IMG/VR virus record: IMGVR_UViG_3300022562_001298
Coordinates: 1-35,794 of that record
Reading direction: 5' to 3' (one strand)
DNA from: a virus
DNA: 35,794 bases
The first letter of the stretch is position 1; each line of letters begins with the position of its first letter. The notes under the pieces were generated by a model, which was not told the DNA's origin, searched no databases, and worked only from the letters and a program-made list of their open reading frames with translations. A program made the position numbers and the translations under genes. Below, in pieces: positions 6,361 to 11,621 of this stretch.

Positions 6361-7818
6361 TTATGAAATCGCCTTGGTTTTAAAATTCCCGATCTTGGAT
6401 GCCTTTTTCTTCGTGAAGTCCTGCCATCGGCGAATGATCAAATCGCAATATTTCGGATCAATCTCAATCCCGAAACACCGCCGGCGGGCTACTTCCGCGC
6501 CGATCAAGGTGGATCCGGAACCGAGAAAGGGGTCTAAAACAATATCCCCTACTTGGCTTGAGTTTGAAATCGCCCGCCTTGAAAGCTCGACCGGCTTTTG
6601 CGTCGGGTGCTCTGTCCCCCGATCCCTCCCCACCGTCCAAACATCGGAATTCTCCGCCTCGACGGAAAGGGTTACGGCTTGGCCGTCCTGTATCCGAAGG
6701 CGGCGGCATTTTTTGGCCTTCGGCGCGCTTGGCGTCACAAAAATCTCGTTCTCTTTTCCATCGGAAACGACAACTCCTTTGGAAAGAGAATAGGCCATAT
6801 CTTTTGCGCGTTTAAGCCCAATCCTCCAAACTGAAAATTGAGAACGATCCCCGACGAAAAGCGGCTCCTGCCCGTCCTTTGCGGCATAAAAGCACGACTC
6901 ATGCTGCCAGTGGTAGTCGGCATGCCCGATAACGTGCAACGGCTTTATCCAGATCAAATATTGCCTTTCGACAAGTCCGGCGGCTTTCATCGCCGTAAAA
7001 AAGTCCTCCCGCGTCGCGGCAGGGTGCCAGATATAGAAAGCGGCCTCATTGCGCGTTTTCTGGACAAGGGCCTTGAAAGTCTTCCCCAAGAATCCGGCCA
7101 AGCGGTCGCCGGTCAATTCGTCATTCTTTATTCGGGAAAAATTCTTTCCCTTCCTCCAAGGCTCGTTTGCTTGGTAGGAAACTCCGTAGGGCGGATCCGT
7201 AAAAACCATTGCGGCGGGGGCGGCGTCACCCATGAGAACGTCAAACGCTTGCGCCAGCGTCGAATCCCCGCACAAAACTCGGTGATCTCCCAAGGCCCAT
7301 AAGTCGCCCGCCTTGGCTATCCCAGGCCCATCCCCCGCCTCCGGCACGTCGTCTTCGTCGCCCCCCTCTTCCTCTTCGACCGTCACCTTCTTTTGAAGGG
7401 CATCGAAGAATGTTGTTTTTTCAAGCCACGGGGCGTCCAAGTCCTTCGTGAAGGCGTCAAAGCCGGTCGCTGTGATCGTCTGGTATTGGGAAGAAATGAC
7501 GAGGATTTTCTCTTTCGCATCCTTCTCATCCTTGGCCTTTATCAAAAGGCATGGGATTTTATGGGTCTTTTTTCCGTTCTCATCTCGGAAAACGGCCCCC
7601 TCTTTCCGAAAAAACTTCTCGCGCCCGTGGCCGTCCAAAATGAAGAAGTCTTTGCCTTTCTTCCAGACGAATATCGGCAGGAAAAGTCCCTTCTCCGTGA
7701 TCGAATTTTTGAGGCGCTGATAATTCTCGTCCTCTAAAATTTTGAGATCGCCCTGTAGGGGCTTCAACTCCCGATAATCGATATCTTGGACGTCGAATCG
7801 ATGTAGCCTAATTTCCAT
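6361..7818 (-). CDS. ParB-like nuclease domain fused to a DNA adenine-type methyltransferase
   Basis: 485 aa. Residues 1-115 are a ParB/sulfiredoxin-like domain: L-K-x-S-I-x-E-K-G, then F-I-L-D-G-H-G-R-E near 59-67. A highly acidic linker (147-163) follows. From about 170 there is an AdoMet-dependent amino-methyltransferase with catalytic D-P-P-Y (208-211) before the AdoMet-binding D-P-F-L-G-S-G-S-T (429-437) and H-P-T-Q-K-P (404-409). That order is the beta class, which usually makes N6-methyladenine. Phage fusions of this kind are known and are thought to protect phage DNA from restriction. The start overlaps the end of the upstream small gene by 11 bases. Target sequence cannot be read. 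Confidence 0.9.
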   Translation of the reverse strand: MEIRLHRFDVQDIDYRELKPLQGDLKILEDENYQRLKNSITEKGLFLPIFVWKKGKDFFILDGHGREKFFRKEGAVFRDENGKKTHKIPCLLIKAKDEKDAKEKILVISSQYQTITATGFDAFTKDLDAPWLEKTTFFDALQKKVTVEEEEGGDEDDVPEAGDGPGIAKAGDLWALGDHRVLCGDSTLAQAFDVLMGDAAPAAMVFTDPPYGVSYQANEPWRKGKNFSRIKNDELTGDRLAGFLGKTFKALVQKTRNEAAFYIWHPAATREDFFTAMKAAGLVERQYLIWIKPLHVIGHADYHWQHESCFYAAKDGQEPLFVGDRSQFSVWRIGLKRAKDMAYSLSKGVVVSDGKENEIFVTPSAPKAKKCRRLRIQDGQAVTLSVEAENSDVWTVGRDRGTEHPTQKPVELSRRAISNSSQVGDIVLDPFLGSGSTLIGAEVARRRCFGIEIDPKYCDLIIRRWQDFTKKKASKIGNFKTKAIS

Positions 7819-7999: not shown

Positions 8000-8378
8000 C
8001 TTTCACCTCCATCACAAGTTTCGTAACATCCACTCCCGCTGCGCGCTCCTCATCAGTTAGTTCGCAAGCGTCAATGTCGCCACTCAACCCGCTCACGTCG
8101 CCTCGAAGCCCGGTAACGTTGCCCCGAATCCCGCTCACGTTCCCATGAATCCCGCTCACGTCCCCATGAATCCCGCTCACGTTCCCACGAATCCCGCTCA
8201 CGTCGCCACTCAACCCGCTCACGTTCCCACGAATCCCGCTCACGTTCCCACGAAGCCCGGTAACGTTGCCCCGAATCCCGCTCACGTCGCCACTTATGAG
8301 ATCATGAGGGCCATCGATTCGCCGCCCTTCCGAGAAATAGTAAATTTGTGATTCTGTCTTTTTAAGCGCTGGTTTCAT
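7989..8378 (-). CDS. Heptapeptide-repeat protein (G-D/N-V-S/T-G-I/L-x)
   Basis: 129 aa. Residues 30-99 are ten consecutive seven-residue repeats with consensus G-[DN]-V-[ST]-G-[IL]-[RHS]. The N-terminal 29 residues are basic and the C-terminal 30 residues are acidic, with E-L-T-D-E-E-R-A-A-G-V-D-V. Regular Gly, Val and Ile/Leu positions suggest a beta-solenoid, but this is inference. I recognise such repeats from unannotated small phage proteins, without known function. A perfect GGAGGTGAAG Shine-Dalgarno supports the ATG at 8376-8378. The 21-base repeats make the locus prone to copy-number change. Confidence 0.8.
   Translation of the reverse strand: MKPALKKTESQIYYFSEGRRIDGPHDLISGDVSGIRGNVTGLRGNVSGIRGNVSGLSGDVSGIRGNVSGIHGDVSGIHGNVSGIRGNVTGLRGDVSGLSGDIDACELTDEERAAGVDVTKLVMEVKDGN
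8082..8291 (-). repeat. 21-bp tandem repeats, ten copies, coding the heptapeptides
   Basis: Ten in-frame 21-bp units. The plus strand shows alternating CCGCTCACG and CCGGTAACG blocks separated by TTCCCACGAAT, TCGCCACTCAA, TCCCCATGAAT and similar. Units vary by one to four bases, mainly at the third, fourth and seventh amino-acid positions. Confidence 0.85.
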
Positions 8379-10412: not shown

Positions 10413-11621
10413 TTATTCGCTTCCAACCAATAGGAGAAAAGCTCTTGCGGCACATGCGGGAACTTGCGCGTTGCCAAGGCCTGTAAGGCGGTCCACGCGA
10501 GAGGGGATATCTACGGCAAGGCGATCCATTCCATTCTCCCATCTACCGTCTTTCCAAGCCGCTTCGCCGTAGAATGGTGAAAGTCGTGACGCCACTTGCA
10601 AAGGGTCTGGATATTCTCCGGGTTGTTTTGGGTTATGTCTTGGTTGATATGGTGGGCGTTCAATATTTTCTGGCAAGTTTTGCATTTCTTTGAATGCTCC
10701 CTTATTCTCTTCATTGGTAAACCCCTTTATCCAATCACTTACATCTAAGTGATTAATGGGGTAAAGCCTTGTCCAATTTTGCGGAAACCCCATAAGAAGC
10801 TCCACCCACGTCGGGTTCACGGCTCCACCAATTTCCGTTTGAAGATTCTTCCCGCCCTGCGAAGCGTGGCCAGGCCCCGTGTGGCAATTCGCATGCGGCG
10901 TTGGAAATTTCTTTGCTAGTCCCGTCAATGTCAGGCGTTCCGCGCCCTTCTTTCCCCGATCCCTCTGATAATTTCCCCTCTCACTCGCGCGCGGGTTCGG
11001 CCAAAGATCCCGCTTCGCCCTCCGCTGGCGATGAGGGCGAAGCTTCCCGGCCATCCCCATTCCCCCGCCTTGGTTCGCTCCGTAGTCGTTCACGGTCGGG
11101 ATGGGTAGCAACGATCCATAATCGGTCTCGGCGGTGAGGGGCACCGACGGCCGCCGCCGGTATGCAATCCCATCGGACACGAAACCCGCTCGCGGCCAAC
11201 TCTCCGAGTATTCGTCCGAAATATCGGGTAGCAAGGAGGCCTGGGACGTTTTCCAAGAAAGCGTAAGCGGGTCTAACTTCGCGTATGACCCGAATGGTAT
11301 CCGGCCAAAGGTTTCTTTCGTCGTCTTCTCCTTTTCGTTTTCCGGCAACCGAGAAGGGTTGGCAAGGGAATCCAGCAGAGACGATATCCACAAGGCCGTC
11401 CCAGGGACGCCCGTCGAATGTGCGGACGTCGTCCCATATCGGGAACATGGGAAGCACACCGTCTCGTTGGCGTCGGAGGAGCACTTCCCGGCAATACGGC
11501 TCTTTTTCCACGGCGCAGACGGTCCGCCATCCGAGAAGCTTCCCGGCGAGGAGCCCCCCGCCAACTCCTGAGAATAAGGCAAGCTCCCGCACATTAACTC
11601 CTTAAGATAATGCCATCCCAT
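10413..11621 (-). CDS. Second-frame methyltransferase-associated protein carrying the C-terminal MTase part
   Basis: 402 aa in the +1 frame relative to the MTase N-terminal gene, which it overlaps along all 612 bases of that gene. Recognisable segments are S-Y-A-K-L-D-P-L-T-L-S-W-K-T-S-Q (112-127), S-E-S-W-P-R-A-G-F (139-147), L-P-I-P-T-V-N-D (172-179), N-P-T-W-V-E-L-L-M-G-F-P (269-280) and, near the end, R-V-D-R-L-T-G-L-G-N-A-Q-V-P (375-388). The last matches motif X of cytosine-C5 methyltransferases, and the others recur together in phage proteins linked to such enzymes (from memory). ATG 11619-11621 has a weak site; ATG 11592-11594 with AAGGAG is an alternative start. It may act as the target-recognition half of a split enzyme (inference). 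Confidence 0.75.
   Translation of the reverse strand: MGWHYLKELMCGSLPYSQELAGGSSPGSFSDGGPSAPWKKSRIAGKCSSDANETVCFPCSRYGTTSAHSTGVPGTALWISSLLDSLANPSRLPENEKEKTTKETFGRIPFGSYAKLDPLTLSWKTSQASLLPDISDEYSESWPRAGFVSDGIAYRRRPSVPLTAETDYGSLLPIPTVNDYGANQGGGMGMAGKLRPHRQRRAKRDLWPNPRASERGNYQRDRGKKGAERLTLTGLAKKFPTPHANCHTGPGHASQGGKNLQTEIGGAVNPTWVELLMGFPQNWTRLYPINHLDVSDWIKGFTNEENKGAFKEMQNLPENIERPPYQPRHNPKQPGEYPDPLQVASRLSPFYGEAAWKDGRWENGMDRLAVDIPSRVDRLTGLGNAQVPACAARAFLLLVGSE
10511..10714 (-). CDS. HNH endonuclease nested inside the methyltransferase gene
   Basis: 67 aa in the third frame, wholly inside the C-terminal part of the 402-aa gene. It has the small HNH pattern: C-K-T-C (residues 11-14), then H-H-I (21-23), N-N-P-E-N-I-Q-T-L-C and R-H-D-F-H-H. 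Cys pairs plus the His-His and Asn-His positions fit a zinc-bound beta-beta-alpha-metal nuclease. The ATG at 10712-10714 has a GGGG Shine-Dalgarno seven bases upstream. It may be a phage packaging or restriction HNH, or a homing-type invader of the MTase gene. The overlap in three frames over the locus is unusual. It is shorter than most HNH proteins but complete across the motif. Confidence 0.7.
   Translation of the reverse strand: MKRIREHSKKCKTCQKILNAHHINQDITQNNPENIQTLCKWRHDFHHSTAKRLGKTVDGRMEWIALP
10981..11592 (-). CDS. DNA cytosine-C5 methyltransferase, motifs I-VIII
   Basis: 203 aa from GTG 11590-11592, with AAGGAG five bases upstream. AdoMet-binding motif I is L-F-S-G-V-G-G-G (6-13). 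The catalytic G-F-P-C-Q-P-F-S is at 74-81 with Cys77. E-N-V is at 114-116 and R-R-D-R-L-W-I-V-A, motif VIII, at 154-162. The frame stops soon after motif VIII, so the target-recognition region and motifs IX-X are missing; motif X is found in the overlapping second frame. The enzyme would methylate C5 of cytosine to protect phage DNA. It may be half of a split enzyme, as in AquI, whose two overlapping genes encode both subunits, or a product of a frameshifted ancestor. Confidence 0.85.
   Translation of the reverse strand: MRELALFSGVGGGLLAGKLLGWRTVCAVEKEPYCREVLLRRQRDGVLPMFPIWDDVRTFDGRPWDGLVDIVSAGFPCQPFSVAGKRKGEDDERNLWPDTIRVIREVRPAYAFLENVPGLLATRYFGRILGELAASGFRVRWDCIPAAAVGAPHRRDRLWIVATHPDRERLRSEPRRGNGDGREASPSSPAEGEAGSLAEPARE

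Follow-up and report, generated by a model that had tools for sequence, protein, structure and literature searches.

A putative two-subunit C5-cytosine methyltransferase encoded in overlapping frames of a phage genome, with an HNH insert between motifs IX and X

Introduction

In phage Aeh1 the insertion of mobE splits nrdA. Among the C5-cytosine methyltransferases (MTases) that consist of two polypeptides, the beta gene of M.EcoHK31I also lies in another frame of alpha, and the AquI genes overlap only briefly. The large subunit of M.EcoHK31I (YGGCCR) carries motifs I-VIII and X and its small subunit motif IX; M.AquI (CYCGRG) has motifs I-VIII on the first subunit and motifs IX and X on the second (PMC3404938). 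The ShiLan domain of mycobacteriophages is an HNH hidden in another frame of a methylase gene (PMC11855218, PMC9957025). The 2025 paper on ShiLan mentions neither EcoHK31I nor AquI nor a heterodimer.

Here we describe a locus in a 35,794-nt stretch of viral DNA (IMG/VR record IMGVR_UViG_3300022562_001298; hereafter the window) from a contractile-tailed phage. Compared by described motifs, the window shares the motif distribution of M.AquI, with IX and X on the second polypeptide, but its genes overlap along all of alpha and its relatives suggest that X moved from alpha. The motif division of M.EcoHK31I, again compared by described motifs and not by sequence, is the common layout of the homologues, and most relatives have an alpha with I-VIII and X. 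The window shares with M.EcoHK31I a beta in another frame overlapping alpha, whereas it has X on beta, a shorter alpha and an inserted HNH, and belongs to a phage rather than to a restriction-modification locus. The likeness to ShiLan lies in an HNH ORF in a non-methylase frame, a methylase frame that is open through the insert and a patchy distribution. On the other hand, the window locus already consists of two overlapping MTase frames, so that the insert decides which subunit bears X, and the methylase is apparently a different one from ShiLan gp65, judged from the genes of phage Starcevich. This phage carries ShiLan and has an alpha/beta-type gene, gp69, with a second methylase nearby; gp69 holds no HNH, and we rejected the idea that the ShiLan domain sits in the same gene. 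As with mobE and nrdA, a homing-endonuclease gene would have rearranged a phage enzyme gene and left the enzyme functional; in Aeh1 the enzyme was cut in two, whereas in the window the nuclease gene is read through in the host frame.

Results

The features of the locus, with the evidence for each in brackets, are as follows.

10981-11592, minus strand: alpha, predicted catalytic half of a C5-cytosine MTase, 203 aa, GTG start (PF00145, PHROG 363, predicted fold); within it motifs I (FSGVGGG), IV (GFPCQ), VI (ENV) and VIII (APHRRDR)
10413-11594, minus strand: beta, +1 frame relative to alpha, 393 aa from the ATG at 11594, containing the variable/target-recognition region, motif IX and motif X (PHROG 1008, C-terminus of PHROG 363; openness, similarity and substitution tests)
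10413-11621, minus strand: upstream-start version of beta, 402 aa from the ATG at 11621
10770-10817, minus strand: motif IX, NPTWVELLMGFPQNWT, beta frame (+1 placement in most homologues)
10458-10481, minus strand: motif X, GLGNAQVP, in the beta frame in the window and in the alpha frame in most homologues
10511-10714, minus strand: HNH ORF, 67 aa, ATG start, +2 frame (HNH PHROGs, position in relatives, alignment)
11590-11603, minus strand: shared start region, with AAGGAG at 11603-11598, the beta ATG at 11594 and the alpha GTG at 11592
10741-10980 (approximate bounds), minus strand: alpha-frame tail past the alpha stop, with the remnant WWSREPDVGGASYGVSAKLDKALPH of the segment before motif X (three-frame translation)

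The initial annotation had placed motifs I-VIII in one frame, an open +1 frame of 402 codons with motif X over the same bases and an HNH motif in the third frame. Searches with each frame separately gave strong matches for alpha and beta and weak ones for the HNH ORF. Alpha matched the Pfam family DNA_methylase (PF00145; E 1.9e-35) and PHROG 363 (E 1.4e-59). The 402-aa beta matched PHROG 1008 'DNA methyltransferase' (8.8e-28) over residues 75-285, spanning the overlap, and also the C-terminal part of PHROG 363 at its motif X end, which bears out both frames as first read. Had the N-terminal half of the 402-aa frame lacked homologues, this would have spoken against it; it has many. The predicted fold of alpha (pLDDT 87.8) matched M.HhaI and M.HaeIII with an E of about 1e-13. 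Beta modelled alone gave a pLDDT of 51.6, too poor for a fold search, and the beta profile had no meaningful match among PDB sequences. Between them the two frames hold the complete C5-MTase motif set, with I, IV (PCQ), VI (ENV) and VIII on alpha and IX and X on beta. Judged from its sequence, the locus is a C5-cytosine MTase split over two proteins, with predicted catalysis. A second contig was identical across 6,206 bases including the locus, which makes a base-calling error unlikely; together with relatives of the same layout it rules out a sequencing or assembly error. Elsewhere in the window, positions 6361-7818 (minus strand) encode a second DNA MTase (ParB-like N-terminus and DNA MTase, PHROG 498), and self-comparison revealed short imperfect direct repeats of 84-94% identity at 8088-8287.

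In the common layout of the homologues, alpha carried motifs I-VIII and X, and beta carried the variable region and motif IX and stopped just before X. With a strict pattern for motif X, this layout was recognised in 63 of the 81 viral representatives. Bacterial and archaeal loci, which ranged over Proteobacteria, Bacillota, Planctomycetota, Chloroflexi and archaea, had motif X on alpha in 57 of 80 cases (by pattern) and motif IX in the +1 frame in 75 of 80, the latter as in most viral homologues. In intact alphas the segment of which WWSREPDVGGASYGVSAKLDKALPH is a remnant sits before motif X. Since X was on alpha in nearly all HNH-free relatives, we infer that it was originally located there. 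Three loci (L231, L238 and L239) had X on beta after a gap of 55-69 codons from IX and no HNH motif; the gap may be what is left of an HNH insert, or these loci may have an AquI-like layout that lacks one. Starcevich gp69 (L180) had both IX and X in the alpha frame with a truncated +1 beta-like ORF left, and is a possible re-fused or intermediate form. In locus L120 the MTase looked fused, which we put down to a GGG run differing by 1 nt.

The +1 ORF was present over the same bases in every viral homologue with an alpha match (~100 homologues, the first 21 from a beta query and the remainder from alpha alone, with the same behaviour). It was also present in nearly all of the 80 bacterial and archaeal loci, a set that came from a beta query and is thus no measure of the overlap frequency among all MTases. 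A plasmid search gave a single match, in Leptospira. When the alpha codons were shuffled synonymously, the +1 frame was longer than in the shuffles (p<0.05) in 72 of 81 representatives, as against 4 of 81 for the +2 frame, on which shuffling had no effect. The median +1 ORF of the 81 homologues had 234 codons where the shuffles predicted 109; in the window it was 202 codons against a shuffle mean of 93 (p=0.007). Beta similarity to the window also exceeded the synonymous-shuffle null, with a median z of 4.4 in +1 versus 2.4 in +2 (alpha-selected set). For most loci these shuffles rule out that conservation of alpha mimics similarity of beta; in L024, the nearest relative of the same layout by alpha identity, beta similarity in the alpha overlap was not above the null (z -0.1). 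Inside the overlap of related pairs, changes at alpha position 3 were suppressed and changes at position 1, the beta wobble, were raised. Position 3 accounted for 0.43 of the differences in the overlap versus 0.61 in the alpha stretch upstream of beta. As the loci are related, the pooled counts behind p-values overstate independence.

These results bear on the possibility that the locus is a broken MTase, i.e. a normal gene hit by an indel and an HNH insert, in which the overlap is a by-product of GC-rich codon use. The window alpha is indeed shorter than most, with a decayed tail, and the HNH ORF is degenerate. However, the overlap and its openness were kept over some 200 loci, including AT-rich homologues (GC 0.36-0.45) with 175-276 open +1 codons versus about 57-117 in shuffles, and all catalytic motifs are preserved. 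Compared with most relatives, the window insert lacks 174 nt between IX and X, and the HNH has lost its N-terminal zinc domain; since 174 is a multiple of three, the frame from beta into X is kept. An origin of the overlap by a simple indel, the other finding that would have spoken against the initial annotation, does not hold either, because alpha and beta also overlap in those related phages that keep X in the alpha frame. We consider a broken MTase highly improbable.

At the 5' end of the two MTase genes, AAGGAG precedes both starts, which overlap as ATGTG just as first described. The beta and alpha starts were at most 10 nt apart in 54 of 188 loci, with beta starting 4 nt after alpha in 45 loci, 5 nt before it in 6 and 2 nt before it in 3 (window included); beta started later in 121 of the 188. 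Residue 2 of the alphas that begin M-x-E-L is N, D, H, Y or R. Where codon 2 of these alphas was NAT or NAC, it was NAT in 39 and NAC in 2, against a background of 36% NAT (binomial p about 1e-15, relatedness ignored). A NAT at this codon keeps the beta ATG, and the conserved pattern is RTG-N-ATG, a double start that, judging from codon choice, shows selection on beta. On the combined evidence of openness, substitution pattern and double start, the overlap is not due to chance and beta is under selection, and the dual coding over more than 600 bases that had been suggested at the outset appears to be real. The 5' end of beta (11560-11621, minus strand) has the look of a tandem repeat whose copies have diverged, GGGATGGCATTATCTTAAGGAGTTAATGTGCGGG / GGGAGCTTGCCTTATTCTCAGGAGTTGGCGGG, and the upstream MGWHYLKEL there resembles MSWHYLPEL, the beta start of relatives.

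The same observations weigh on whether one MTase is made by programmed ribosomal frameshifting, with motifs I-VIII read in frame 0 and a shift to +1 for the TRD, IX and X. Such a shift would bring out the window motifs in canonical order (I-VIII, TRD, IX, X), and the 1-nt difference in L120 does fuse alpha with beta. In the common layout, however, X returns to frame 0 and two shifts would be required. Moreover, beta has its own conserved start at most 4 nt from that of alpha in many loci, and similarity is conserved through the overlapped part of beta, for which a frameshift would have no need. We regard frameshifting as highly improbable.

The HNH ORF matched HNH PHROGs weakly (1.6e-4) and has its own AAGGGG 7 nt upstream of the ATG. 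Its motif had been read as complete; H-N-H is kept in the 67-aa ORF, but one zinc-ligand Cys is replaced by Arg (LCKWRH for LCKWCH) and the alignment revealed no N-terminal zinc domain of the kind found in relatives. The window HNH is shortened and may be inactive. Its closest relatives (49-57% identity) were located between IX and X of alpha/beta MTases, and a profile search identified 66 HNH loci, about 40 of them MTase-associated. The window layout, with IX and X on beta and the HNH in +2, was seen in 20 entries (about 18 loci after dropping the window's own copy and near-copies), with alpha identities mostly of 42-87%. In 15 other entries X was on alpha and the HNH lay in +1 past the beta stop. 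Throughout the HNH-bearing loci, X was always in the frame before the HNH frame. Over 37 HNH genes this preceding frame had 1 stop versus 172.9 expected, while the other frame had 195 versus 176.7; the MTase therefore reads through the nuclease gene, and this reading is under selection. The window HNH alone had 0 shadow stops versus 1.9 expected (p=0.07). Alpha usually ends near motif IX in loci with the window layout; that of the window ends earlier, with the decayed tail still recognisable. An HNH was also located between IX and X in two MAGs (L229, Dehalococcoidales; L258, Spirochaetales), which shows that the insert also occurs outside virus records.

A single functional MTase frame with the HNH as a chance ORF is extremely improbable: the p-value and the missing Zn ligand of the window HNH would allow it, and annotated phages usually have one frame called, but both MTase frames carry selection signatures and the HNH relatives sit at the same position. 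The nuclease that the initial annotation had linked to the MTase is thus present as an ORF, with its shadow frame conserved across relatives, and the evidence supports a mobile-type insert rather than a restriction partner. Homing would be consistent with the patchy placement and, by analogy, with the published ShiLan case (PMC11855218).

Discussion

It is very probable that the locus encodes a two-subunit C5-cytosine MTase in overlapping frames, with a probable shared ribosome-binding site, one assembled enzyme and an HNH insert that joined X to beta. Alpha (frame 0) would provide AdoMet binding and the catalytic Cys with motifs I-VIII; beta (+1) would provide the target-recognition region, and with it specificity, together with IX and, in the window, X. 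Both are probably initiated from one ribosome-binding site at the overlapping ATGTG, and the HNH ORF is presumably translated as well. The two subunits would assemble into a single enzyme; it would modify the DNA of the phage, and its most likely role would be protection from host restriction. A split MTase in the manner of AquI had been proposed from the start; the placement of IX and X on beta agrees with this, reassembly is predicted, and the common layout is M.EcoHK31I-like instead. In the ancestor, alpha would have ended with X in the manner of M.EcoHK31I. A homing-type HNH insert would have landed between IX and X, with the MTase subunit reading through it in the frame before that of the HNH; in the window lineage the insertion would have joined X to beta, and the alpha tail would have decayed afterwards. 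More tentatively, an HNH element may spread among two-frame MTase genes and be read through in the preceding frame, so that landing in either phase moves X between the subunits without loss of function and three functional proteins come from one stretch; we put this forward as a possibility.

Two-polypeptide C5-MTases (M.EcoHK31I) and hidden HNH inserts in phage methylases (ShiLan) were already known, and both ways of dividing the motifs (M.AquI, M.EcoHK31I) have been established biochemically. In the open-licence papers that we searched, we came across no description of a beta gene overlapping alpha across phages, of the staggered start or of the transfer of motif X between subunits. The alpha/beta arrangement is widespread in viruses and prophages and mostly absent from genome annotation. 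In the records examined only one frame was annotated, namely alpha in Salmonella phage S9-5, Synechococcus phage S-H1 and E. coli PT62, whose prophage has its alpha/beta gene at NZ_CP090448, 1254489-1255226; in Mycobacterium phage XFactor (L263; NC_028910, 44212-44940) gp67, a 'hypothetical protein', is beta, and the intact alpha frame is unannotated.

In phages and prophages from many phyla, the beta gene covers alpha wholly or for the most part, and among same-strand overlaps in prokaryotic DNA this one is long and well supported. Expressed by itself, alpha would be without its target-recognition half and could seem inactive. The natural movement of motif X between the subunits amounts to an existing experiment on the ways in which a C5-MTase can be divided, which could be of use for split-enzyme epigenome tools.
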